64,000 bases of DNA, from the NCBI GenBank assembly GCA_964036295.1, contig OZ038463.1, forward strand, positions 12,639,274-12,703,273. The letters run 5' to 3'. The first letter of the stretch is position 1; each line of letters begins with the position of its first letter. The notes beneath the pieces were generated by a model. That model saw only the letters and a program-made list of their open reading frames with translations, searched no databases and was not told the origin of the DNA. Source of the stretch: Plumapathes pennacea. Taxonomy: Eukaryota; Cnidaria; Anthozoa; Antipatharia; Myriopathidae. This document shows positions 2,335 to 49,200 of this stretch, one piece after another. Both the position numbers and the translations under genes were made by a program.

Positions 2335-3626
2335 GGGGGGGGGGGAGGCAAGAATGGAAATAAATAACCGTCTTAGGAACCTGTGCAGATGCGTGATCAC
2401 ACGGTGAATCGCTGTCCTGGCCTCTAGCCTGCGTGCAGACGTCCTGTATCCCCGACAAGACGTCTACACGAAGGCTACCCTGGCTCTTCCTCTTATCTCT
2501 TTTGAGACAGAGAAGAGTGCTCGCAGATGCTTCAGCCGCATCTACTGAGACCGTCAAGTTACGAGAAACAGTTTTCCATTGTTGTTTAGTGCGTGCGCGC
2601 TCACCCGCGATGACCGTGGTGACACCGTGCTGAAAGCGCGCTTGCTTTGCTGACAGTGATTGCTGAATGTCTGGAACATGTTTTCTTGCACGTGAGACGA
2701 AACTACAAAAAAGGATGCTCATTCCCGCGTGCTGTAAATCTTGGTTCTAGCGCCGTGTGACCACGGCGTATATTGCACCACTAGTTCGACATTGAGTGGG
2801 CTGGAAATATTGCCTTTGTGATTTTCACGTGAATCCCTGATTGTCATGACTGATTTTTAGTCATTGCGTGTTTTATCGGGATTGCGTCCGAAAATATGAT
2901 TTATTTTTTAGATAATCTCTCTATTCTCTGTTTTGTTTTTGTTTTTGTTTTTGTGTGAAAAGATAATGGTCTACAGAGGTATTAAGACACTTCAAAGGCC
3001 AAATCAGATGAAGTATAGCTTGATTCAATGCGCATGCGTCAACACGGAATGTCTTCTAAAACCAATGTTAGAAATAGGTTTCAAAACCATTTAGAAATTA
3101 TATAACTTGTTCAACAACTAGAAAACGAGTACAAGACTTAGCGTGCTATTATGTTGCCCTTTTGCACCGAACCTTTCAGCGTTCCTTTCCGGACAGTAAA
3201 TTGACTCCCATAATGAGAATACAACAGCTTCTCGCTAGGTCGGTGTCGAGTGGCAGTTTTTGTTAGCTTTGCGCAGTGGCATTACCGTAACCAGTGAGGT
3301 TCATCCGAGGTGCGGTTATTGCTGATTGAAAACTTTTCCCAATACCCCGCCAGACGGCTTGAAATACAGCCGGCTGTGCAATTTTTGAAGGCTCATCCGT
3401 GAGCCCCACAATAAATGAAAAAAAAAGAAAACATTGAAAAGTAGTTTGGAACCGGAACAGTTGTTTCGTACTAGTACGACTGGTTCAAACAAGAAGTTCA
3501 GCAGGAGAGCCAGTTGGCGTTAGTCCTGGAAATCAGTTTGAGCCTGCACTTGCATGCAACGACAGCTCGACGTCGAGCCAAGATCTGAGCCTCCGATCAG
3601 CGCCAACAGCGGCACACTGATTCAAG
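2021..3626. promoter_or_regulatory. Intergenic/divergent promoter region GABARAPL2-OTUD6B
   Basis: The two flanking genes are transcribed away from each other, so this 1.6 kb holds both promoters. It contains a (GA)n tract followed by a run of about 18 G (2308-2346) and a T-rich (GTTTTT)n stretch near 2930-2955. ORFs of 119 and 175 codons here cross the low-complexity tract and show no family signature, so I do not call them genes. Confidence 0.5.
2308..2346. repeat. (GA)n followed by poly-G
   Basis: Simple-sequence tract: eight or so GA units running directly into an uninterrupted G run of about 18 bases. It lies in the divergent promoter region of GABARAPL2 and OTUD6B. Poly-G length is likely unstable and error-prone in assembly. 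Confidence 0.9.
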
Positions 3627-8784: not shown

Positions 8785-10055
8785 TTTTGGTAGGAAGCTC
8801 CGCTCACCTAGGTGATTTTCAGGGAGGTCCTACAAAAAACTAAAGCTAAACATTTTAAAAGGCTAAAACCTTAACAAGATATATTTCAAAGTTACAAGAT
8901 TAAAAATACGTCTAAAAATTATCTTATCGTATCAAAGAGTTCTTAAAACAGCCAAACTAGGTGATTGTCTTGTCTGTAGATCTAAATTGTTCCAGTCCTT
9001 AACCGCATGATAAATGAAGCGTTGCTTGCCCCAGTTGGTGCGCACACGTGGAAGACGTAGATCTTGACAGCGGCGCGTATTGTGTCCATGGACATTATTG
9101 TTTCTTATAAAACTAAATTCAGATGAAACGAGGTTATTCAGGTGTTTATAGATAGCAACACAGCGATGGAAGTGGCGGCGGGCATACAGAGGTTGCCAGG
9201 TCAATTTTTCCAGGGCCTCTGTGCCAGAGGAGTGTCTCGGGAGGTCCATTATAATCCTTGCGGCATTGTTCTGTAGCACTTGCAAGTGTTGCATGAGGAC
9301 TTCGTTGTTTTTTTCGCCCCAGACCAGGTCTGCGTAGTCGAACAATTGTAGGACAAGGCTATTGTATAATGTCAGGCGACTGTGCTGTGGTAGTAAGTGC
9401 CTAACACGACGTAATAGTCCAAGTCTTTGACAAACCTTTTTGCTCAGGGCGTCTATATGGTCCAACCAAGTCATATTATGACTAAATGTGACGCCTAAGT
9501 ATTTGAAAGACTCTTCACGTTCGAGGGGTTGGCCGTTTATCACCAGCGATAGGTTGGGAAATAAAGAGTTGACCTTGCGCGTGCTTCCAAATATGACAAA
9601 TTTGCATTTGTCCACGTTTAGGGTTAACAGATTATTATTAAGCCAGTTACAGATATATCGGAGGTTAGTGTTAATGTTATCTTCGAGCTCTCGCAGATTA
9701 GATGAGGAGAAGTATATAACTGTATCGTCTGCGTATAAGGATACTCGACAGAACTTGGTGCAGGAGGGTAGGTCATTTACGTAAATCAGGAACAAGAGTG
9801 GCCCAAGCACGCTTCCCTGTGGAACTCCAATTGTTACTGGTTTTGCAGAGGAACTGGACTCGCCAACCGTGGTAATTTGAGTTCGCTGGGATAGATAAGA
9901 CTTGAACCAAGTAATAGCGGGATCGGTAAGCCCTGTCTTTGATAACTTTGTGAAGAGGACTTGGTGGTCCACAGTGTCGAAAGCCTTCGATAGGTCCAAG
10001 AAAACGGCGCCAGTAACAAGGCCTTTGTCCATGTTTTCAAGAGAGGAGCGCTAGA
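8785..10055 (-). mobile_element. 5'-truncated non-LTR retrotransposon (CR1/L2/Jockey group) with RT ORF
   Basis: A 366-codon open frame (10032-8932, minus) encodes most of a reverse transcriptase: FLDLSKAFDTVDH near its start, GVPQGSVLGPLLFLIYVNDLP, then the catalytic LYADDT box, followed by the WLNNNLLTLN..K block and the C-terminal thumb-like region ending in the WNNLDLQTRQSPSLAVLR motif usual for this group. The palm and thumb are intact, but upstream of 10032 a stop and a frame change occur and the endonuclease and ORF1 are missing, so the copy is dead by 5' truncation, the normal fate of LINE insertions. The 3' end runs into the (ATA)n array. Clade placement is from motif recall only. 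Confidence 0.9.
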
Positions 10056-11951: not shown

Positions 11952-22161
<10,210 letters not shown>

Positions 22162-22604: not shown

Positions 22605-25600
22605 ATGGCGGCTCTTTCTAACTGCAGCAGAAAATGTGTGCAATCTTCAAATATCCGCAGAAAATGGTCTCTCATGACGGTCATCAGGAGCTTCGCAAAC
22701 GCTACACAAAACGACGTTCAATACTGTATAGATTTAGTAAGGTAAGCTCAAGAGTATGTTGCAGAGAGAAGACCCAGAGCTATGTGCAGGCTTTTGATGC
22801 AAGCGATCAGGTTAAACTGCTAGTCTCGCGATCAAGAGACATCCTATCATTTTTCTCCATACTGAACTGCATATAGCTGGATTATGCATAAAAGGGAGAA
22901 TTCTGTCTCTGACTACTCTTGTGGAGTTGAGACTGTACGTATTCAATTCGTCTCTTTGTATTTGTCTCTCTATTGCATTGCTCAGGCGGTTGGATTACGA
23001 GAACTTCCTCTGCACTCTGTTAGTCCCTAAGACGGCCAGGACGTCCGTGTTTGGTATTCGTGCATTTAACGTGGAGTTAGCACAGGTATTAAGATCTGGA
23101 AAGCTAAACTAATACCACCATGGCAAATCACAGTTTAGACTAGTTTAGGGACATAGTTTGGTCCGAGATAAAATAGTAGTTACTTGTAGTTAAAATCGAG
23201 TGATGCATTTAATATCGTTTCCCCTTTATCTGTACTCAGTACCATCGACATATTCACCAGTCCCGGTCCCCACTTAACATTAATAGGTTATATAAATTAT
23301 CCCCCCCCCCCCCCCCTTCCTTAATGTCCACCTAAATTTGGTTGTCCCACAGTCGTAAAAACAGTTGCATAACAATGATGGTTGGATATTATGAAACCCA
23401 ACTTTTACGGGCGTTTTAATTAATGTTGAAACTTACGTTTGGACTCTGTACATTTCCTTGTCGATTTCTGCTCACGCTGCTCACTTTTTTACCCAAAAAT
23501 CCCCACACTAACGTCCAAATTTGGACCATCCCTACCCCCCTCCCCCTAACAGCCCCTCTAGGTTTCAAACTCACCCTACCTCCCACAAATGGTTTTCAAA
23601 GTACCCTACTGCCCTGCTGTCATCTGAAAAAAATGGTGGCATAAAGTGATTTATTGATATCAAAAAGGATTATTGATTGATTGATTGATTGTTTTATTGA
23701 TTGACTATTTTGTGGTTTGTCTATTAGGTGCAAGATTCTGTCAGTGATAAGAATATAGGAAAGATGCGGTTACAATTCTGGAGAGACACTTTGGAACAAA
23801 TATATAAGGTGATCCTCTATTGCTGCTTATCCTAGGAAGAACCACTGAGGATGCAACTAAATCCTCTTGTAGCCTTTGTACAGCCATCCCATTCTCTTTG
23901 TACCTTGGAAAAGCAACATGTTCCTATCTGAGGTATGAAGGAAATGGGACAGCTGTACACAGGCTAAATCTCTGGTAGTGACCGCACCCTCAGTGCTAAC
24001 AGGGCCCGCAACAATATTGACTCACTGCTGTGGTAAATACCCTACCATGTGAAAACGGGAAAGCTAACAAATTAAATAGAAATAAATAATCCTGACAAAT
24101 CTCACCCACCCCTTCCCCCAGGGGGGGTACTCCTCAAAATTTTGGGTGGGAGTGTGCCGCCCAGGACAGAAAACCCTTACCCTATTTCAGACCAAAATTT
24201 GCGATTTTTAACCCTATTTCAGACCAAAATTTGTGATCTTCGACCCTATTTCAGACCAAAATGCACAATTTTCAACCCTACTTCAGACCAAATATCAAAA
24301 TCTCCGACCCTATTTCAGACTAAAATGCTGAAAATGATACCCTTTGGGGCGGCACATACCTATATGGCTCATATATGGGAGTACCCCCCCCCCCCCCCCC
24401 CGCCCCTTCCCTGGCCTCCTCCTCGCCCATGACCCACACACAACCTTTTGCACTTGCTGAAAAGGAATGCTTGCCATATTAGCTAGTAATTTGTGGCCAG
24501 AAATTTTTTCTTTTTTTGATATTTTTTAGTCTTGTTATATAATTTCCCAATACTGTCTAACTCTTGATTATCAGGGAAACTCCCCTCAACAGCCAGTGGC
24601 ACTTGTAGTAACAGAAGTGAGTATGAGACTATTCATTATTGCTTAAAAGTTGTTTTGTTTTATTTTATTTTATTTTTCATAATGTCACTCCCTCCCTTGG
24701 TATGGAACACTATTCCCAAGTAATCTTCCATAAAATAGGATTTTGACCTCAAACAGCTAATGTGCACACCTGGGTCTTACCTCACTTCCAGGTCATCTTG
24801 TCCATCATTTTACTTGTCTTCTTGTTTTCTCAGTTTTAACTCTGTTCCTGTCTATACAGTATACTACTTACTCTAATATCATATTGCTCTTTTCTCAAGG
24901 CAGTCAAAAGACATAAGCTTACAAAACAGTGGTTCACACGACTAATTGATGAGAGGGTAAGTATTGTCAACAAGGTCATATGCACTTAGATTATTATCAT
25001 CATCATCATTTATTATTATAACATTATTACTATTAAATATTATTATCATCTCAAGGTTAGTAATTTGGATGACAAACCTCATGCCACTGTAAGTTCTTTG
25101 GAAGAATATGGAGAAAATACTGTTTCACCAGTCCTGTATCTGAGTCTGGAAAGTCTTGGTAAGATACTGGTTTGGTTTGTTTGATACTGTACATCTGAGG
25201 CGAAAGATGGGAGAAAGTTGAAATATTAGAGGTCACTGCCTGTTGACTATTTTCTTGCAGACATAAGAAATGTGCATGCAGATCACGCTGCTAGTCACAT
25301 TGGGAAAGCAATTGGAATCGTGACCCTTCTAAGAGCCACACCCTTTCATGGAAACAAGAGAAGAGTTTACTTACCCAGTGACATCATGGTCAAGGTATGT
25401 GACATTACATGTATTAAGCCCCATGCACACGAACAAGTTTTCTATGACAAGTTTTCTGTGACAAATGATTTGCCCATGTATACGGTTGAGCAATTTTTTT
25501 TCACAAGTTTTTTGACAAATTTTCGTTGTTTCTTTTCCTTCTGACTTTGACTTCCATAAACTCTTCACGTGATCTCAAAGCCTCCAGCAAGAGGCTAACT

Positions 25601-28821: not shown

Positions 28822-30079
28822 TCAAACAACATGTAGTCTGGCATATTTTAACGTCCATTCTCTTGCAATTCTTTCATATTCCTCCCTGTTCTCTGCACAA
28901 AGTTTAGCTATTTCAGGTTCCATAGAAATATGACAATAAGGATCTGTCAACAATGATTGTATGCTGACTAAAACCTTAGGAATTGTGAGTGCAAGACTCC
29001 AGTTATGCCGCAGAGCATCTAAGCCCACATCTCCATGGAAACTGACATTTGGATGGAAAATCCGTGTGATAAATCTCACAATTGGAGGTCTCATTGGGTA
29101 GCTCTTCGGAATTTCCAAATGCAAAAAGAACAGTCCATCATTATAAGGGCATTCAGGTGGGCCTGTGATTGATGCATGCCAGTGAGAATAGCTGTTGTCC
29201 AAAGGCATTGCATGAATTCCTTCAGTGGGGTCTACCAGCAAGTTTTTCAGTTCACTTCTGAGCCGCTTGTTTCTCCAAGTGTTTACCAAGTCATTCTCTG
29301 GAGACCGCTACAAAATCAAATGACAAACAGGCCACTAAAGTACCGTACATTATTCTAAAATGTGCCATAAGACAGCAGCATGTGTGATAATGAGATTTTT
29401 AAAAGATAATTCCAGATTGAAACAGAAATTTACATGTACTGTATCAGTGTACTATACTTTATGAAACTCACAAAAATTGTTCGTGAAAGCTGACAAGACA
29501 AGTAAAACAGGAAGACCCCATAGTCATCCTGGCTGATACATGAAAAAATAAATAAAACACACACACACAGAAATACAAACTAAACATCTGGCAAACAGTC
29601 AGGAAACTAAAAGTCCATCAGTGATCCATGCTTCAGTGTTTGCTTACCTGTACAGAGCCTTCTTCGAAACATCTTCTGCATGTCACACTTTGTAACCTTC
29701 AAAGAACATGTAACAGTTGAAGTATATGAAGATGGATAATTAATAAAAGAAAAATTGGAGTCCTCATTGAAAATGTTTTAGAGCACTACACTTTGGGCTT
29801 CCAACAACATAATAATTATTTTACTGTACAGTAGAAGAATCCCACTAACTCAAACTCCCCATTCCCTTGCATTTCCTTTTCAGTCATTTACTATTGGCTA
29901 ACTTGAACTCCTGCTAACTAAAACTATTTCTCATGTCCCTTGGGAGTTCAAGTTAGCAGGGTTCTACAGTAAATAGTAACTCCTCAAATAATTTACCAAA
30001 AATTGTACACCTTGAACCAAAAGACAATACTACATTTGGTAAATTGACAAATGGAGGCTTCAATGATCAATAAATGGCC

Positions 30080-30146
<67 letters not shown>

Positions 30147-32359
30147 TAATAATAATAACAACCAATAATAATTAGTAGTAGTAGTATTATTATAATTATT
30201 ATTATTATTATTATATATTTTAAAAATGATTATTAATATTAGTTAAATAATTCAATGAATTTTGTTCTACACATTCTTTTGATAATCAAATGTGAAATAC
30301 TTACAGTTGTAGGTAGAGAGTTCTCCAGCACTTGACCGGTTTGGCTGGTCGTAGGAGAGGCCATCTCTTGGTGACATATGTTTTCCACTGATCTGGTTCT
30401 CCAGCAAGAAGTCTCCATCGGTGACAGACTTGCCCAGCCATACACAGTGAGATGTCATCCAAGTTTGAAAAGATCATTAAGAGGACTGTAGATCAACAAA
30501 AGATGTCATTCAAATTCAAAAAGAACATTAGGAGGACTGTAGATCAACAAAATGGACTAAAATTAGTGACAAGCAGAAAACCCAAAACTCTAAAACAGTA
30601 GACAGATAAAACCCCAATAATGAAATGTTAGAGCAGCTTTTGACTGGAGACTGTTGATGTATACATGTGCAATGTCTGTGCCTCAGTTTTGCCTTATTTT
30701 GTTGTGCTTTCTAACCTTTGGTCACAGAAGTTCTGCAACATTTTCAGCCAATCAAAACCAACAATGTCATGGTTAAGTTTCATAATTATGCAACTATGAG
30801 GCTCAATCATCACTATAACCTTAATTGACTGATCTCTTGACTTCAAACTACCAGTAACCAGTTTCAAATGGCTTCTGGTTTAATTATGGTCTTGTTTGTT
30901 TTGAATGGCAGATAAAAATAATCATGTGATTGCTTTGGTTTTGCACTTACTAGTACACCAAATGAGTTTAGAAGCATTCCCAGCCAATCAGTAACAAATG
31001 TGGAACCTGATCATTGTGATCTCACACACCAAACAAGTGTTGATGGTGCTTTCCTGCACTGCTGATTAGTTTCTTCTTCAAAGTAAAACCAAACACAAAT
31101 TACGTTGGCCTTCCGTTAGTTGAAAGTCTAGACTGCAAGCAGACGCCCCGGGAGGGGGAGTACTCATCATAATATTTTGGGTGGCAGTGTGCCACCCTAT
31201 TTCAGACCAAAATATCTGATTTTCCATACCCTATTTCAGACCTGACTTTAAAATGTATACCCTATTTCTTTTTCTGTTGCAATGATTTCTGCCGGGTATT
31301 TCTTCTATTTGCCATGCTTAATGTCTGCAGGAAAACACTCCTGTCAAAATCATACCCTATCCCAGACCAAAAAGACAAATCGATACCCTATTTCAGACCA
31401 AAAAGGCAAATCTATACCCTATTTGAGACTAAAAATGCTTGAAAATGATACCCTTTGGGGCAGCACATGCCTACATTGCTTATATATGGAAGTACCCCTC
31501 CCCCCCCCCCCCCCCCCCCCCTCCTTTCCCCTCCAAGATCCTACAGCCCAATTGTGAGCGTAGAAAAGTATGGCAGTCGCAATGTCATCTTGGAGGGAAA
31601 AGGAGGGACTCCTCACAGCCTATTAAAAGTCTTTCGTTCAGTTCAGTTTTGTGACATTATCAGTGGCTGTCAAAGACTTTGAAATCTGTTGCTTTTGCTT
31701 CATATATCGATGTGTATTTAATTATTGATCAAAACAATGCAGTAAATTCAGGGTCTTTGTTGAAACAAAGCTGAAGTTCGACAGCCAGCCTGTACAGTAG
31801 TCGTCGTCACAGTTTGTTTATACTCACTTTCCGGGGGCATGCTCTCCACAAGATTTTCCTCGACGACGTGTAACTCAGCAGCCAACCTTTCAGCAATGAG
31901 GTAGGGCGACCTAACCCTCTCATACAGAGATAAGTACGGTAGCTTGAAGCTGGAGTCTGTTCTTTCTGGAAAATCAGTTGTCGAGACGTAACACTTATCG
32001 CTTTCACACCCGCTATCTTCTTCCGATTCAAGCCCGCTCGTATCACAAGTTTTCGATTTCCCGACACCATTTCTGTCTTCCTTTTTGTCGAAAGGGACAA
32101 CGTGCCAACGTTCCTTTTCTTTCTCGTCCGCAGCTTTGCTTTCTTTCGCTGCAACGGCGACAGTGTCGGGATACAAAAATGCGTGACAGATTTCACAGTA
32201 AGGTCCAAACTCTGGGGTGTCATGATGCAAACAGCACATTAGGCATGTCTCAAATGTCGCTTTGAAGTCACTGTTAGACTTGCAAGCTCCTGTTTTGTCT
32301 TTGCCGTCTGAACATTCATCATTGCCGCCTCCTTTAGATTCTGTTTCGGCAGCCGCCAT
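28822..32359 (-). CDS. F-box protein fused to a cysteine-less UBE2D-like E2 domain, 4 exons
   Basis: Predicted ubiquitin-system protein of 415 residues. Exons (minus): 32359-31828, 30485-30305, 29696-29648, 29307-28822; phases fit and the joined frame is open. Residues 1-170: acidic, with a Cys-rich patch (TCLMCCLHH, CEICH; C39, C42, C55, C58 could bind zinc). Residues about 173-215: F-box (MPPEILLMIFSNLDD, then CHRWRLL). Residues 240-250: a CRRC motif. Residues about 260-410: UBC fold with NTWRNKRLRSELK, the YPMRPP turn, an intact HPN motif, the W..ALTI.KVL.SI.SLL.DP block and REWTLKYA near the end, most like UBE2D/E. The position of the catalytic cysteine is Gly349 (codon at 29023-29025). 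By family knowledge F-boxes bind SKP1 in SCF ligases; a catalytically dead E2 domain suggests a non-covalent ubiquitin- or E3-binding module. I do not recall a named vertebrate orthologue, so no symbol is given. Confidence 0.85.
29829..29969. mobile_element. Tigger/pogo-like MITE with TA duplication
   Basis: Ends CAGTAGAAGAATCCCACTAA and GTTAGCAGGGTTCTACAG, flanked by TA on both sides, in intron 2 of the F-box/E2 gene. Related to the copy at 57858-57975. Confidence 0.75.
30081..30214. repeat. (AAT)n / (ATT)n compound microsatellite
   Basis: (AAT)n of about 25 units with a few AAC interruptions, then AGTAGTAGT and a shorter (ATT)n part, which could form a hairpin. It lies in intron 2 of the F-box/E2 gene, about 90 bp past the donor of exon 2. 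Confidence 0.92.
30481..30545 (-). repeat. Tandem duplication of the F-box exon acceptor
   Basis: On the minus strand TTGTTGATCTACAGTCCTC occurs twice, about 54 bp apart. The copy nearer the exon is the acceptor used (exon begins 30485). The upstream copy includes the acceptor plus a diverged version of the first 38 or so coding bases of the F-box exon; splicing there would meet a stop about 15 codons later. Confidence 0.75.
31150..31524 (+). mobile_element. GGGGGGTACTC-family repeat, copy C
   Basis: Left end GGGAGGGGGAGTACTC, then CCCTATTTCAGACC units, an inserted unique segment (about 31275-31345), further units, the block GGGGCAGCACATGCCTACAT, and a right end GGAAGTACCCC followed by about 22 C. 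In intron 1 of the F-box/E2 gene. Confidence 0.85.
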
Positions 32360-37264: not shown

Positions 37265-40200
37265 TCATTCTTCTGAATTCTTGTCTGGTGATTGTGGAAC
37301 AAAACGTAGCAAACTGTCACAACAGTGGAGCTTCGTTTGTAGTTCGCTACACTCTTCGTTGATACGCTTCCGCTTCCCATACACTGTTTCCTTTTCAGTA
37401 GAAAGTTTCTCTATTTCCGTGTTTAACTTCTCCAGTTCCTTTTTCTTCTTTTCCAGGTCTTCTTCGATGCCCGCAAGTGTGTCATTCATCGCTGGTAGAA
37501 AAAATGGGGCAATAGTTATTATAAATTATGTAAAATACAGGTTAAAAAAACAGATTAAAGTTTAAACGGATTCGAATTTTAACTTTTTTGTCATCTAGTT
37601 ATAAAGTGTCCAAATAGTTTTAAAAGCTTCATCACAACACCAATTTTACATCATGCACTGCAACCTCCTGTTTGATAGCAGTGTTAGGATGTATTTGTAT
37701 CAGATGTTCAAAGACAATTACAAGGATCCTTTTTTGATTAATTTTATCATCGTTGCTTGTTTTGCTAACCTTTATAGGAATTCAATCATAATTTAATTGC
37801 ATGCAAAGGGAATCTTGTATTCTGTTAAATTCAATTTGCATTTCGACCAAATAAACAAAGAATAGTACTAACAGCCCTAATTTCAGTGCTTCCCCTCACC
37901 TTGAACAGTATGGAGCTTTTCTTTCAATAAAGTCTCGTCCTCTAGCCTCGTTTTATTCGCCAGCTTTGTCATATTTTCAAGAAGACCAGCTCCTCTCAGG
38001 AAGGTGATCAAGGAACTATCCAAATCTGGAAAATACATAACTGGCTAATCAACATTCGGTACACCAAGAGCACCACACATATTTTGTAATTATTAGAGTG
38101 TTCTGATATAAAATAGTTAATATTGGTAATCCGTGATAATGGTGGCCTGTGCAGTAGATACAATGGTAAAAACAGTTCTAAAGAGAACTAGATTGACTGT
38201 GGTTTGCATTTAGTCCCCAATATTTTTCTCGTTCATTCTCATCGAGTAAGGACTGGACAGAGTGAGGGGGACTGGAGAGGGTGACGAGCAACGAGAAAGG
38301 AGAGTGTGTGAGTTTCAAGAAAGGCGCGATGTTCAAATTTCATCGTTCGAATCTAAAAGGAAACGCTCCTATCGTCCCACAGAATTGTAAGCATCGTTTT
38401 CAGCGACGGTTAGTTTTTCCAGTTCTAAATGTTTTTTCCTTTTTGTAATCGGTGTATCATTATTTAATTCCCAGTCGACTAGACTAAAATTGGAAAGGAC
38501 CTCCGAAGCTACTACAAATATAAGACAAGGGAGCTTTCTCTGTGTGTGGCTTTCATCTATAGTAGCGTGTCGCCCGTACATGCGAAACAGTCAAAATTCT
38601 AGCAAGCACGAAAGACACACCAAGTCACCACGAAATCGTCACCGAAGGACACGTCACGACTTTCAAGGACAACCGACAGCCAAAAGAGCGACCGACCGTC
38701 TTTGAAGACATTTCGTCCCTCATATACTTCACAGGAGAAGGTAGACGGATTCAATTTATCTGACATTTGAGTTCATTGTGAGATTCTTGCGCCCACCAAA
38801 AAACAAAATGGCGGACTTCATCAACACATGGTTTGCATGAGATCGAGGCTGACCGGAAGTATATCTGGATAAATTGGAATAATTTGAAACTCGTTTGAGA
38901 TGCCCGAAAGCAGATCTCAAGACTCGAAGGAAAAAGAGATAATGCAATACGCGCTCTGAATGATTTGTTTGGAGAACTTGAAACAGTTTTTGCAGTTCAG
39001 CCAAAACCGGAAATTCTTGAAGCTGTATTCAACCAACTTGAAGCAAAATAGAGAAGCGCAAAGAAACAAAAAGAAGTCATTGCGGACAGACTTGTAGAGG
39101 AAGATACCGGCTCGGTGACCGAGTCAGCGCCTGCTAATCAGAAGATTGGGGATAAAGTCAAAGTGGACTATCTGCAGATAGCCCAGGATTATGCTGCATA
39201 TCAGAAGGAACATAGTCTTCAAAAATCCCAAGAAAGCTCTGGGGCATTGGAGGCGATGGCGAGCGCAGTGAAGAACATGGTAGAAACCATGAGTTCAAAG
39301 CCAAACATTAGTGGCCTAGAAAGATTGTCTGTGCCCACATGGGATGGGAACCGGAAGTCATATGCAACCAGGAAAAGAGAATTTAACCATTGGATGACTA
39401 AATATGGTCAAGATAAAGAAGAACAACTACAGCGTTTCCGAAAAGCTATGCCAAAGGGTTTCTCAGACCAAGTGAAAACCTGCAAGACCATTGATAAGGC
39501 TTGGGATATTCTTGACACTGAGTTTGCGGACAAGCGAAAGCTTATGGATGAGCTCTTAACTGAAATCAGTAGTCGCAGACCCATCAAGAAAGACTCAAAA
39601 TCACTTGCTCAGCTTCTGAAGCACCATTTTCATGTCACAACTTTTGTCAAAGCTTGACTCAAGGGACAATATAGTAGAGAGGTGCAAAGGGAAAGAAAGA
39701 AGAAAATGTCACCAATCTCATTAACTGGTTACACCAAGAAGCGAGTATAGAGAAAAGAGCCATCGAGAAACTAACCCAAGGTGATCAGACAACCATACAA
39801 CCACTACTGGAACAACTGATGATGAAACTTGTCTTCTTGGCTGCACACCCAAACATCTACTTGCTGCCTGTCCCGGCTACCAAGGTTCAACAGTGAATCA
39901 AAGGTGGGAAATCGTCAAGCAAAACAAAAGATGTCGCAAATGGTACCTCCTGCGACAAATGCAAGAAAAATCATCACCGCATCCTACACAATGAAAGGCA
40001 GAATCCTGTTAGTTCCAATTTGAACCCAAATGCTGGGCCATTCCCTTACCAAGAGGCCTCAATCACAGCAAACAGCAACAGTTTTCAAAGGAATGATGAT
40101 CAGAGGAGAAAGATTAAACCTGCCACTGGACTGTGTCCTGTTCAGAAAGTTATGGTCGGTGATTCAGGTGGAAAATCCATGGAGGTTCTGGCAATGTTGG

Positions 40201-43200
40201 ATACTTGATCAAACACAAGTCTTCTATCGAAGAATGCAGCCAAACGATTAGGACTGACTGGATCTCAGACCCATTTAACCACGAACCTTGCTGGAGGAGA
40301 AAAGAAATCGGAAGTTTCAGAAGTCCTTGAGGTCACTGTTGCCTCACCTACTGAAGAAGACACAAAGAAGACTTTCCAAGTACATACGGTCCGGAGACCG
40401 TGCAGCAGTGCCAAGACAGTTTCAAGAAGATCCATTAAAAGTTACTCTCATCTGAAGACAATCTCACACAAGTTGCATCTCTCAGGTGGTGCTGTAGATC
40501 TTCTCATTGGCACTGACCTCGTTGATGCATTTATTGATGTTCACACAATGACTGGCGAGTATGGAGAACCTATTGCGAAGAGAAACTGTTTTGGATGGTA
40601 TATCATGGGACAATTTGATTCAGAGGCAATGAACACATCTGGAATTCACTCAGTCGACATCGGGACGGTGAGCATCGTGGAGGATGTGAAGAAGCTTCTT
40701 CATCAAGATATGTTGGGAGTCAAACCAACTGAACTCTGTACGTGCAGTGACAACGTTCTTCGAGAAAACAAGTTCGTAAAGTCCCTATCAGATTCAACTA
40801 CATTGGTGGATGGAAGAATTCAGGTCAAAATGCCTTGGAAAGAAAGTGGACCGCCAAGACGCAGCAACTACGACATCGCAATCAAGAGAATGTATTCTGC
40901 TGAGAAATCATTCAAGAAAAAGAACTGCTACGAGGTTGTGAGTGAGGATGTCCAGAAGTTGTTGGACCAGGACTTTGTTTGCAAAGTACCTCCTGAGCAA
41001 GTAGACCATAACCAACCAGAATGGTATCTGCCTCTTCAGGCGGTTTTCACACCAGAGAAGACTACCAAAGTTAGACTAGTCTTTGACTCATCTTGTAGAG
41101 GCCACGATGGTCTGTCACCAAACGATCACCTCGAGAAAGGACCAAACTACATCAACAGCCTGCCAAACGTTCCGACATCCTGGCGATGGGACGAAGTGAC
41201 CTACTCAGGTGATGTCCGGAAGATGTTCAACCAAGTCATGGTACATCCGGATGATCAAATATATCACAGATTCTTGTGGAGGAACAACACGAACGAAGCA
41301 CCGTCTGTTTACCAGTGGCTCAGATTGAACTTTGGTGATAAACCAGCACCTAACATTGCCTCAAATGTTATCAACACCTTAGCCAAGGCGTCTCAGGCAG
41401 AATTTCCTGAAGCAGCAAGAGAGCTACAAGATCACACGTATGTAGATGGTGTTGGTGGGTCCAAAGCAACGTTGACAGAAGCCAAGCAAACTACGAATGT
41501 AATTGACGCCATTTTGGGAAAGGGTCAATTCCAAATCAAGACATGGCATTCCAATCGCCAGGAAATTGACCAGTCAAATGGTGAACGGTTCACAGATCTA
41601 CTTGGCCACAGATGGAACAAACAAGAAGACACATTTTCCTTCAAGAAAGATGTGGTCATAGGAAAGGTCGAAGGATTTCTCCAAGAGAAGTTGCTTAGCC
41701 CTGTTGGCCCAACTTTGGGACCCCATTGGCCTCGTTTCACCTGTCACAATAAAGTTCAGAATCGATTTGCAAGAATTGTGGAGTTCGGGCTACAACTGGG
41801 ACGACATCTGGCCCAAGAGTGTTCAGCACAAGTGGATGGAAAATGTAGAAGCCATGAATCACCTCCTCACGTTTGAGTTTGATCGCAAGCTGAAACCAAG
41901 GAACACAGTAGGTCCACCTGAAGTTCATGGATTTTCTGATGGTGGAGAACACGCATATGGTGCAGTCATCCTCCTTCGCTGGACTCTCAATGATGGAAGC
42001 TATTAACTGTGTTCCAGTTATGATCAAACCGTTTGTTGCTCCTCTGAAGGAGAAATCCATTCCAAGAATTGAACTCCTGGGATGTCTAGCCCTCTCGAGG
42101 ATGTACGATACGTGTCAAGAAGCACTGAAATTTGCAAAGATCAAGGACTGCAAGAGAGTCTTCTGGGTAGACTCGCCAACTGCCTTGTCCTGGATCAGAA
42201 CTCCACCACGACAATTCAGACCCTTTGTGTCGGCCAGGGTGGCTGAGATTCAAGAAACAGTGGGAGTGGAAGACTTTCGCCACATCAGATCAAAGAGTAA
42301 TCCAGCCGATGCTCTCACAAAAGGAATTGAACGGGAGCAACTCACAAGTTGGCTGAGGGACCCTCGTTCCTTAGACTGCCTGAAACCAAATGGCCTGACT
42401 TTCAAGATACAAGCCAAAGTTCTCAGGTGGAAGATGCAGAAACTTTGAAGAAAAAGAAACCTCCAGAGAAGAATGAACGGGTCAACAAACGTAATGCAAC
42501 AACCAGGAAAGTCCATGCAAGTACCGCCACTCAAGAAGAAAGGAAGGACAATCCCATCTTGTTGCATTTGCTGGAGGCCTGTTCTACGTTCCCGAAAGTT
42601 AGGAGAACTCTTGCTTATGTTCGTCGCTTTGCTCAAAACACAATGAAAAAGAACGTGAGCAAGGAACCTCTCTCTGTTCAGGAACTGAAAGATTCAGAGA
42701 GTCAACTTTTCAAGTGGAGTCAACTTCACCTTGATGTAACCCTCCTGGACAAGAAACTGGTCGCTAAGGCTGATCATAACGGACTACTCCGAGCACAGGG
42801 ACGCCTTGAAGATGTCAGATCTCTCCCGGAAGACATGAGAAACCCCATTCTCCTGCCACGAGGCCACCAACTCGCACACCTGCTCCTACTGCACTTGCAT
42901 GAAAAGCGTGGACACTGTGGCTAGAAAAACCTGATACATGAAGCAAGGAAGAAGTTCTGGATCATTGGACTCCGCAACATGTCAAAGCTCCTCATAAGCA
43001 AGTGTGTCATTTGCAGAAAGCTACGCAAGAAACCTCTCGTGCAGCTGATGGGCCAAAAGTCTAAGAGTGGCAGCAGGGTTCCCAGCCTTCTCTAACACCG
43101 CCATGGATATGTTTGGACCATTGCAGGTCAGGTTGAATCGGAAGACTCTCAAAGAAGCGCAAGTTGTCATCTTCACGTGCATGACGACAAGAGCGATTCA

Positions 43201-46200
43201 CCTGGAACTTCTCACGGACAAAACATCAGAAGCGTTTTTGATGGCGTTCCGTCGTTTTGCCTGCCTGCGTGGACACCCAAACGTTAGTTGGTCAGACTGT
43301 GGAACGAATTTTGTGGGTGCTCAAGCATACCTCAAAGAGATTATGCAGTGTTGGGAGATTCCCAAAATTCAAAGTTTGCTATCAGAAGAATTCACCTGTG
43401 ACTTCAAGTGGTAGTGGAACATACCCCATGCAAGTCATCAGAATGGAGTTGTGGAAACCCTGATCAAGTCTGTCAGAAAAGCTCTCAATTCCACATGCAA
43501 GAATCAAGCCTTCACCAAGGAACAGTGGAGGACATTTCTCACAAAGACCACCTACATGATCAATGGACGCCCATTGTATCCAAGCTCAGACAACATCTGG
43601 GAATGTCCACCCATAACTCCGAATGATATTCTCGTGGGGCAACACAACCCCCCTCCGCAGCCAGAGCCAGAGGACAGGATCAATCCCAGGCATCGACTCA
43701 GAAGCACTCACAACCGAGTCAGTGAGTTTTGGACCTGCTGGATGAAATACTTCGCACCCAATTTGCTACCAAGGAACAAATGGTTCAGAGTGAAAGAGAA
43801 TGTGGAAGTTGGTGATTTGGTATTGGAACTAGACCTAAACCACAAGAAATTTAAAACCATGGCGAAATTTTGATGGTTCTATTACCTCTGCTCTTTTGCT
43901 CCGACGATTTTTCTGAAACTTGGTCAAAATATGTATTAAGTCAATATAAGCTGATTCCAGAAATTTTACAAAAATATATCAGCAAAATTTTTCACTGGGT
44001 GTGATTTTGTTCAAAAAGCGCTGTCCACTTAAGCTATAATATCACTGAAAATATTTTTTCCCAAGTTAAATCGAATTATATCATATTATTGCTGAATGAT
44101 AGCTGCAATGTTCTTCAAAGTTTCATAAGAATCGCATATAAGCCAAAAAAGTTATGATCCAAAGTTTGTCATAGACGCGTGCACCCGATGAAACTCCGGA
44201 GTCACCTTAAGCCACGCTTTGGTTCAAAGGTGCTAAAAAGCTTTTGATCGATCGTGTTGTAAAATCAAGGTGAAGTCCGCAGTTCGGTTTTAATTTTCGA
44301 GAGCATGTGCATTGAGAATCAAAGGACCCAAAATGTGAAAGATCAGTTCATCACTCTTGTGATTCTCAATGTCCCCACCTCTGTTTTGGAAGTCAAATAC
44401 TCTCAGGTGCAAAGACTGCCACTTTATTCACCATGTGGTCGGCTGCAGAACCTGCACTAGTCAGCCTAATTGACAAATTGACAATACATTGTCACAGTGT
44501 TAACATATAATCCATTGTTAACAGGTCAACCAACCAAGTGAAATTTTCCCCCAACTGCTGTAACTCGTTCATGTTTCACATTCACGAGTTAAAAATAGGA
44601 AAAAATAGGAACTTGACACGCTGGGTTAAATAAGGAAAATGTTTTTGTAATGGTAATTCATTGTAGCGGAGTAAGACAATGTAATAAAAACATCTGGCAG
44701 TAATGGCAGAATTAGAAAAAGAGAAGCCAGAAGGATGCAACTTACCTGCTGAAGTGCTTGCCAAATTATCAGGCACAACCTGAGTAGCAATGTCAGGGCC
44801 AGCACTGGGCGTTGCATTCACATCTATGTCATCATTCACTTGGGTGGCTCCACTATGACAGTCTCTTACTGGGGTTGAATCTATACATCCTCGGCAGTTT
44901 GGACACTCACCACAACAACCCTATTTGCAAAAGACGAGCCTGGTTTTTTATGAGGGACACAAGCATAAGTCCTTATTTTACAGTGAAAACATGCCTGGAT
45001 GCAACCACTAGCATGAGAAGGATGAAAGTATTTTGTTTTCTTTGTGCTGGGATCATTCATTTTCACTGATGCATATTTTCTTGTGCTTGTGCTAGAGTCA
45101 TGGCCGCTAATGCAAACCAGGCTATGACTGCTAATAACAGATTGATCTAAAATCCTAGCATAATTGTTTACACAGCCTCCCAAGTCCTCTGTTAAGAGAT
45201 GATGCTTGAAGATACTATCAGGCATGACCCATTTTCCCCTCAAACCTTATTATTGAATTGCTTGCACTTGATGACAACCTCAGCAGCTTTTTGTTTCATT
45301 TTACAAATGTAAATAATGCACCTTTTCTGGTTTTCTAGTGCTATTTCCAGTATTTGTTCAAAAATGCTTATTAGTCAAACATAGATGGTGTGTGAATATA
45401 GGCCAAATTGTCCCCACCCAGAGAGAAATCCTTGCACAGCCAGACAGTGATATGAGCCACTGTAAAAAGTGCAGAAATTTGACATTGAAAATGATTGACA
45501 GCTACTGCACTACATTATGCAAAGTTTGGATGTTCAAATGTGAGCTTTGTTATTTTCAACCCACCAATGAAGTTATTAAAGCATGAAATAAAGAAGTGTG
45601 ACAGAAATTATCATATACATCTTATTTAAAGTAATCACATGACCTCTCATGCATGTTTGGAATACATAAGCACCCATTTAAGCACCACAAACATTGCACT
45701 TGCACAGGTTTGTGGTCTTTGAAAAATTTTATCTTGCTCATTATTTTAAATTGTACACAAAATCATGTGTTTACATATACAAACCATCTTCTGTTTGCAT
45801 ATTACTCACCAGGTCGAATATCTCTTTCTTGATCTGGGTAACTGGTATTAGATCTTGTTCTTCCTGAGGAGATTGCTTTTCAGCTTCACTTGTTTCATTT
45901 GTTTCACTTGCACCATTTGTGTGACTTGCTTCACTTGTTTCATTTGTTTCACTTGCATCATTTGTTTGACTTGCTTCACTTGTTTCATTTGTTTCACTTG
46001 CATCATTTGTTTTACTTGCTTCACTTGTTTTACTTGCTTCACTTGCTTCATCTGTTTCATTTGTTTCATTTACAACGGGGATCTCTTCCTCCTCTTCTGG
46101 TGTGTCTTCTTCATTATCATCTTCATTATCATCTTCATAAGGTTCTTCTGCTGCTGTGTCTTCTTGAGTATCACTGTGTGAAAGTTCATCTGCTACACCA

Positions 46201-49200
46201 GCAAATGGGATGTCAGTTGGTTCATCTGAAACTTCAGTTTCATCATGCACAGGAGACTCTGGAGGACTTTCTGTTAAAAAGGCACTGCTGTTGTACTTTG
46301 CCTGTGGAGTCTGTCCTTTTTTAATATGATCAGTCAGTGCCTGCGCAATTCTAGTGGAGCCATTGTTGATGGCAACATCAAGTGGCATCAACTGCTGTTT
46401 GTTCTTGATAGTCAAATCAGTACCACTCTCAAGGATCTTCCTCATTGTGGAGATGGACACGTCATTTTGAGCCAAAATGTGGGCAATAGAGTTGCCATCC
46501 TTGTTGGTGGAATCTATAATTTGTGCTGTTTTTCCTGGCATCATTCTGGCTTGCAAAATCATGGTTTCTAAAGCTTGACCGTAGTAGTCAGGTTTGCTAC
46601 CACGCACCAACCGCTTCGCAGCCAGATGTAGGGGAGTGTCACAGTCTTCATCCTTTAACACTAGACAATCTTTTAAGAGTTCTACAATGCGGGGCATTTT
46701 ATGCTCAGGGCGGCGTATACCTGCTTTGTGCAAGCACATGACGCATCGATGTAGAGCGGTTTCTCCGCTTAGTACAGAGCGGACAGTGGACAAGAAACCT
46801 GCAGGTGGTAACACAGCAAAAATAATGAGTGACATTACCATTATCATACTACTAAAATGGAAAAAGACAGACTTTAAAAAAAATGGACACAAACTACTTA
46901 TATATAACAAGATCAAAGACTTTCAAGATACCCAAATTATTCTTATTAATATGACAGGAAGACCATACGCTATGCAAACATGAGGCTCAGTCACTCACTG
47001 TATAAAAGATTAAGGTACATGTAACAATAATAGGGAAGAGAATATTCTATTTCCTCTTTTTATTCCAATAGTATTTACACAACTGTTTCTTTTTATTTAT
47101 TTATTTACTGGATTCACCAACAAAACGTACAAGTTGTACAATAAACAACAAAAACAAACAAAAGTTACAATCAACAAATGAGCATGGACTGAACACAGAG
47201 ACAAGCTCCAATAACGGTCCCCTCCCCAATAAAAAATAATAAATAAATAAAAATCTGGTCATTGTATGCAAGGATCCCACATGGCTTTTCTGGTGAAATC
47301 TGATGCTCATAAATAAAATGTTGGTTGATGATAATGCTACTTTCATAGTAGAACAAAAGCTATGTATATCTGCAAAACTAATGTTTTTATGCGGTGATAT
47401 ACATGGTTAGTTTAGACAAAGGCACAGATCACTACATCTTCTTGTGTATGTGCATGTTAAAAGTTCCCACTGCATATCCCCTTGTGTGAGGAGAACATGA
47501 ATTATTGTTCTTTCATGTCCCTGCTACATGACCCCTTGTGTGCGAGGACCTATATTGTTGAATATGTTATCACTTGAAATCCATAAGACAACATTAAAAG
47601 TCAAATCCCTTACTGCTTGCTGATTTAGATTCTTGTACATAATGAATTTGGTAGCAAACAGTTTTTGGTTTTCTGTCACCTTACTGACCACACATATATG
47701 TTGCCATAAATTCTCCAAAATGTACTTGTTATGGCAACATGTGCTTTACTGGATTATGTTGACACTGTTTGGGGTGACAAAAACAAAACAATCCTAATGG
47801 ATTATCCACAATTTCTCCAGAACAGCAGACTTTTACTTTGACCTTTCCCACACCAATTCATCAGCATCACAAGCACTTAACCAATTAAACTGGCAGCCAT
47901 TATCTCTCTACTGGCGCTTCCATCGTTACTTAAAAAACTTAGTTGATTTTGATTTGAAAAATAAGAACAAAGACATAAATCACAGCCATCACACCTGCCA
48001 AAATGAAAACCTCCTTATTATATAAACATGAGTGTTTTACTGGAAAATATACCGTGCATAAAATCCATATGAAACTACATCAGGGACCTGAGTGGCATAT
48101 TTTCTATATCCTCACTAGTGAGGATATCATTGGCATCATTTCTCACTTTTGCACGGTTGTTTGTGCAATTTCTCGTAAAACACTCGTGTCTAATATAATA
48201 AAAAGAAAATTACACGGCAGCTTGAAGATATGGATTTTATTTTCTCATGGTAAAAACAATATTCAACTCACTCGCAAAGCACTTGTTCGTAAAATATTGT
48301 TTTACCACTCAAAAATAAAATTCATATCTTCGCGCCGCTGTGTAATATCCTCTATATCTTCCATTCTGTGACAATGACATATTTTCTAATGCTCCAATGA
48401 TTTATATACTGAGATTATATCTTTTATTATTGCACTTTTTGGAGACTCCAAGCAGGTCACCATCTCAAAATCTAATGTTTGTCAGTCTGTCAGGCATGGA
48501 CCTCCTGGTGAGATGGCCAAGCAGTTTCATTGCAGTGAAAAGCTATGAGCACCAATGGAAGTGATTTTATACAACAAGATGTTCAAGATGTTGCATCATT
48601 TGATCAGAGATTCCTTGTGGAGATGGTCAGGACGCAAGTCAAGAAATTTTGCCATTAACAGGGTATATTTCGTTTTCCCAGACGAAATAACCCAAATTAA
48701 AATGATGGACATGCATCTGGTGGGAAAATGAAGAACTGCCACGCAAGCATGAACAATGAAATTTCAATTCCAGATGCAAGATGGACAATGTTTTCATTGC
48801 AACAGCATTTGGTGTATCAGCTGGGCTCCTGAGGCAGCGAAAATTTGCCATTTATGGTTGTTTCTTTTCCCGCTTTCTCAAAAATAATCTGGTGCAAATT
48901 GGTGAACTCTGTGAACTTAAGTGAGACTGTTGTCAATGATGCAAAAGACCAGACTAGCTGGTCATGGACCAACTTCCACTCCTTCAATAATTGTGATTGC
49001 ATTGGCTTCTGCAGGAAACAACTCGTGCTTCAAATTCTCTGCTGGGCAAGTGATAAAGTTATGTCATCTATCCGTATTACATGAACTCTGCCAAAACAGA
49101 TTGTTTTGGCCTGATTTTCATCTCCTACACAAGCTTTTGGAGAGGAAACTGTGGCCTATTTGTTCCAAAATGTTTTCGATTTTCTTGACCTATTTTTCCT

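Follow-up and report, generated by a model that had tools for sequence, protein, structure and literature searches.

A predicted zinc-finger, F-box and E2-like protein of Plumapathes pennacea as a probable cnidarian orthologue of Drosophila Morgue

The closest described counterpart of the protein reported here is Drosophila Morgue, on which the first papers appeared in 2002 (as cited within PMC9502492 and PMC12417491). In the parts of PMC3787007 on which we draw, Morgue is described as combining an N-terminal C4 zinc finger of the essentially invariant form CX2CX12CX2C, a central F-box with typically five conserved Trp residues and a C-terminal UEV, by definition an E2-type domain without the catalytic Cys. 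Morgue carries a Gly in place of that Cys, a residue stated in the same source to occur at the active site of no other UEV, and the Asn of the HPN motif (Asn77) is named there as critical for the ubiquitin interaction of UEVs (PMC3787007). Members of Lophotrochozoa, Platyzoa and Ecdysozoa, i.e. protostome groups, make up the range given for Morgue in that text. According to its abstract, over-expression phenotypes in the fly were unaltered by loss of the F-box or by a change of the Gly; one passage of the results of the same paper reports that every domain deletion lowered lethality somewhat (PMC3787007), and the two statements disagree on the importance of the individual domains. Fly Morgue is also described, in the portions of two further papers at hand, as acting on circadian light responses (PMC9502492, PMC12417491).

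We analysed a window of 64,000 nucleotides from the antipatharian Plumapathes pennacea (assembly GCA_964036295.1, contig OZ038463.1, forward-strand positions 12,639,274 to 12,703,273), whose features are given in window positions throughout. Four minus-strand exons joined in phase encode a predicted protein of 415 residues plus a stop codon (1,248 nt) and are separated by three GT-AG introns (Table 1). An earlier note on this DNA had proposed such a four-exon model, with a Cys-rich N-terminus, an F-box, a CxxC linker and a UBE2D-like domain in a single chain; the span (28822-32359), the length and the in-phase joining all agreed with our analysis, and each of the domains claimed was recovered in the order claimed. 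The note had also taken that order to be undescribed, which did not hold, as the architecture is that of Drosophila Morgue as set out in the available parts of PMC3787007.

Table 1. Features of the predicted Morgue-like gene, in positions of the window.
Feature	Position	Strand	Content	Basis or remark
Exon 1	31828..32359	-	Residues 1-177 from the start codon onwards, with the zinc-finger motif, a linker and the opening F-box residues	One match in own genome, 100%
C4 zinc-finger motif CX2CX12CX2C	32186..32245	-	Residues 39-58	Motif as published for Morgue (PMC3787007)
Exon 2	30305..30485	-	Most of F-box and Trp-rich extension	
Exon 3	29648..29696	-	49-nt linker exon with CRRC	
Exon 4	28822..29307	-	Entire predicted UEV domain in a single exon; stop codon	
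UQ_con match	28855..29265	-	Residues 269-405, UBE2D-type	Pfam
Gly349 codon	29023..29025	-	At position of catalytic Cys85 of UBE2D2	Alignment

The introns measure 1342, 608 and 340 nt, with splice donors gtgagt, gtaagt and gtaagc, acceptors that all end in AG and cumulative junction phases of 1, 2 and 0. The reading frame is closed by a stop codon that starts 9 nt upstream of the ATG, and no AATAAA or ATTAAA polyadenylation signal was found in the 1,500 nt downstream of the stop codon. A model predicted from genomic DNA alone, with one intron as long as 1,342 nt, could in principle have misjoined two adjacent genes, with exons 1-3 belonging to an F-box gene and exon 4 to an E2-like one. We regard this as highly improbable, as every junction is in phase with GT-AG sites, the F-box match spans the exon 1/2 junction (at residue 178), and the acceptor of exon 4 supplies an in-frame TAG stop immediately before the exon, whose first Met, residue 288, lies some 20 residues inside the UBC domain. 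A complete UBC domain translated from its own ATG is thus impossible and neither half is convincing as a separate gene; the two-gene reading was rejected because exon 4 lacks its own start.

Two repeats were observed within the gene. A 51-bp tandem duplication with 45/51 identical positions (30450-30551, minus strand) lies across the exon-2 splice acceptor and provides two acceptors separated by 51 nt. Splicing to the upstream copy would truncate the protein within the F-box, after 191 residues, and the duplication may represent either a decayed duplicate or possibly a splicing off-switch. Intron 1 holds repeats (31140-31520) built of units about 31 bp long, and members of the same family match at 24120-24406 and 21331-21616.

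The Cys-rich N-terminus includes a CX2CX12CX2C motif that the earlier note had missed, a pattern that arose in 21 of 20,000 shuffles of residues 1-171. A motif scan of the whole protein found three CxxC motifs, at residues 39, 55 and 244, the last of which is the linker motif, CRRC (residues 244-247), with no second CxxC nearby. The F-box was recognised by the Pfam F-box-like profile at residues 172-214 (E 6.8e-13, 48.6 bits against a cut-off of 24.3) and by the F-box profile at residues 173-212 (E 1.2e-8). Its matches among structure chains include FBXL2 (the best, E 1e-5), FBXW7, SKP2 and FBXO3, from which the window protein differs in having no LRR, WD40 or other Pfam domain: a Pfam scan of the 415 residues returned nothing beyond the F-box and UQ_con, and an NCBIfam scan gave a single match far below its cut-off. 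Like an SCF substrate receptor the protein possesses an F-box, and SKP1 binding would be expected. The F-box region (residues 172-245) contains four Trp residues (201, 211, 219 and 231), with another at 265, as against the five typical of Morgue in the description available (PMC3787007).

The C-terminal domain matched UQ_con with an E value of 1.7e-39 (135.1 bits, cut-off 27), and the best 60 of its 265 PDB matches were chains of UBE2D, which lead, and of related E2s. Over 143 ungapped positions 73 residues (51%) are identical to UBE2D2 chain 6ttu_D, one of these identities being the Ile at position 21 of that chain, which we take to be engineered rather than wild type. The catalytic Cys85 is replaced by Gly349, D117 by Ile, N114 by Tyr and I88 by Ala; Asn77 of the HPN motif and D87 are kept. 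The equivalent of S22, presumably the backside ubiquitin-binding position of UBE2D, is His, and F62 and P95, which we take to be RING-contact positions, correspond to Met326 and Leu359, with the equivalents of K4, R5, S94 and A96 retained. The contact or catalytic roles that we assign to UBE2D K4, R5, K8, S22, F62, I88, P95, A96, L104, S108, N114 and D117 are likewise assumed. A single-sequence AlphaFold2 model of exon 4 alone, made with no alignment, had a mean pLDDT of 34.8, and the fold is assigned by sequence only.

To place the Gly in context we examined the catalytic position in other E2-like stretches of the same genome. At least 61 UQ_con stretches including that of the window were listed, from a scoring of best candidates only that may be incomplete; from the 60 outside the window, 33 were picked by profile range near the catalytic position, and three of these alignments (L031, L032 and L058) fell short of it. 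All of the 30 that reach the position carry Cys, the 30 not being independent, as at least eight are copies of one exon on contig 4. These eight E2 exon stretches lie across about 4 Mb of that contig (approximately 22.29-26.54 Mb), all with Cys, and seven of them are of equal length, with 112 to 114 of 114 bases the same as in the first (itself counted). Gly349, set against Cys in 30/30 other stretches, indicates that the UBC domain is a UEV and not a second E2, and an active E2 enzyme was rejected on account of the replaced Cys. The domain departs from the UBE2D (UbcH5/Ubc4) enzymes that it resembles in sequence in its active-site Gly, in the changes at D117, N114, S22, F62 and P95 and in being joined to an F-box. 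It shares with the UEVs MMS2 and TSG101 an E2-type domain without the catalytic Cys, and differs from both in being of UBE2D type, with an active-site Gly and with an F-box and a zinc finger in the same chain.

The likeness to Drosophila Morgue extends to a CX2CX12CX2C motif of exact spacing, a central F-box and a C-terminal UEV with Gly, all in the same order. Because all four features are common to both, orthology, as judged from these features against the published description of Morgue, is likelier than convergence. Differences are the Trp count given above, the length (fly constructs extend to residue 491 in the account available, against 415 residues here) and the host, a hexacorallian outside the groups named for Morgue in the passages drawn on (PMC3787007). 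Taken jointly, we consider that the window protein is very probably a cnidarian (hexacorallian) orthologue of Drosophila Morgue with an SCF-linked role in non-covalent polyubiquitin binding. The design is therefore already known, and what is new is the host group, a cnidarian outside the range stated in those parts of PMC3787007.

Among the main texts of the open-licence papers searched, none that names Morgue also mentions cnidarians, Nematostella, or both coral and ubiquitin. The abstract of Zhou 2009, on the distribution of Morgue, reportedly states that Morgue was not found in Cnidaria; cnidarian members may already be present in public proteomes under other names. Morgue goes unmentioned in the portion of PMC11354881 at hand.

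The mitochondrial genome of the host (contig 24, 17,711 bases) contains rRNA genes and two tRNAs, Met and one with anticodon tca (SeC under the bacterial code, read as Trp), and two mitochondrial tRNAs are typical of Hexacorallia. With gene names other than cox1 assigned by reading of the translations, nad5 is split around nad1 and nad3, and cox1 is split around an ORF read as a LAGLIDADG endonuclease. The former arrangement is reported for Actiniaria, Antipatharia, Zoantharia and Relicanthus, and a cox1 endonuclease was confirmed in 24% of actiniarians, in the available parts of PMC10167242; those of PMC6890759 describe a cox1 intron with an endonuclease in Relicanthus, as in Metridium. Judged by this gene arrangement, the mitochondrial genome is of the hexacorallian type and, from these features alone, tentatively anemone-like, in agreement with the cnidarian host implied in the earlier note.

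Elsewhere in the window, a U4 spliceosomal RNA at 3265-3403 (plus strand; model positions 1-138 of 138, 120.4 bits) was the sole Rfam match at the gathering threshold. Interrupted retroelement frames at 39052-43873 (plus strand), which match DUF5641 and, below threshold, a reverse transcriptase, are presumably BEL/Pao-like, and a 372-residue reverse-transcriptase frame at 8932-10050 (minus strand; RVT_1, E 2.2e-26) is one that we take to be LINE-like. Part of a class II tRNA synthetase, of the lysine type by eye, lies at 12654-13001 (minus strand; tRNA-synt_2, E 1.1e-13), and a 383-residue frame at 45771-46922 (minus strand) has ankyrin-repeat matches and a repeated tail rich in Glu, Thr, Asn and Ser.

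No second copy of the gene was found in the P. pennacea genome (290 Mb, 24 contigs), where match counts are lower bounds. The N-terminal part and F-box gave at least three matches, namely two exons of the window and a weak F-box on contig 5 with 32% identity, and the UEV exon matched itself and at least 13 shorter stretches with 33 to 59% identity. Confirmed relatives numbered none of six pattern-matched stretches from genomic contigs and none of five from viral contigs, both collections being non-animal and thus little informative. The UEV exon begins at a codon boundary, and the window UEV is the only one of the at least 61 listed UQ_con stretches to cover profile positions 1-139; together with its containment in a single exon, this is what we would expect, as we infer it, if an F-box gene had long ago captured a UBE2D copy that lacked introns. 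The same features would suit an independent fusion in which a cnidarian F-box gene gained a UBE2D exon by retrocopying or shuffling, convergently with Morgue, as would the absence of cnidarians from the range given in the parts of PMC3787007 used here. Such an origin seems to us quite unlikely, because the domain order, a C4 motif of identical spacing and the replacement of Cys by Gly would all need to have arisen a second time, and because identity to UBE2D2 of about 51% does not indicate a recent copy; a recent UBE2D retrocopy was rejected on the same figure.

For a Morgue orthologue, the most likely activity predicted from these domains is that of an SKP1-binding F-box protein with a zinc finger and a dead E2 as non-covalent ubiquitin-binding modules. 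Through its F-box the protein would bind SKP1 and so enter an SCF (CUL1) complex. The C-terminal domain keeps the E2 sequence pattern; with Gly in place of the catalytic Cys, and with other catalytic positions also changed, it would form no ubiquitin thioester at the usual site. The UEV and the N-terminal zinc finger would provide a non-covalent polyubiquitin-binding surface that may hold, or help to extend, K48 chains on substrates beside the real E2, and the outcome would be faster degradation by the proteasome, with IAP-type inhibitors as possible targets. The P. pennacea genome contains matches to both the Skp1 and the BIR domain. We infer, rather than observe in this protein, SKP1 binding, ubiquitin binding, chain handling and substrates. 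Points that count against the explanation are the presence of four Trp residues rather than five, the His at the S22 position, given its presumed backside role, the disagreement over domain importance in the fly, and a stated Morgue range that does not extend to cnidarians (PMC3787007).

Two ideas of the earlier note bear on this mechanism. Its suggestion of a non-catalytic ubiquitin-binding surface appears to be right. Its other suggestion, a competitor for the real E2, would have the UEV of a Morgue orthologue bind RBX1 and block access of the real E2 to SCF, to which the UBE2D-like sequence and the retained K4, R5, S94 and A96 equivalents lend some support; it is weakened because F62 and P95 are changed, altering two presumed RING contacts, and we consider it unlikely. 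Also speaking against it are the three small proteins isolated with fly Morgue, which associates with SkpA and K48 polyubiquitin: they were two SkpA forms and polyubiquitin, as reported in the passages drawn on (PMC3787007). The same passages raise a possible link of Morgue to deubiquitination through Ubp64e, and by analogy a route of the Ubp64e type is possible for the window protein.

With the protein read as a Morgue orthologue, we lean towards the view that the last ancestor shared by cnidarians and bilaterians already had Morgue, and that vertebrates and other lineages later lost it. A cnidarian member would date the origin of Morgue to before the cnidarian-bilaterian split, or else would reflect horizontal transfer or convergence. 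As an outgroup, its sequence would tell whether the zinc finger, the active-site Gly or Asn77 is among the parts of Morgue constrained over the longest span, and would help to distinguish what is conserved in its function from what depends on partners in the fly, for example DIAP1 and the Reaper/Grim pathway. If the reading is true, a polyubiquitin reader on SCF that combines a dead E2 with an F-box would belong to the ancestral equipment of animals, and sea anemones would offer a place to find the original role of Morgue.
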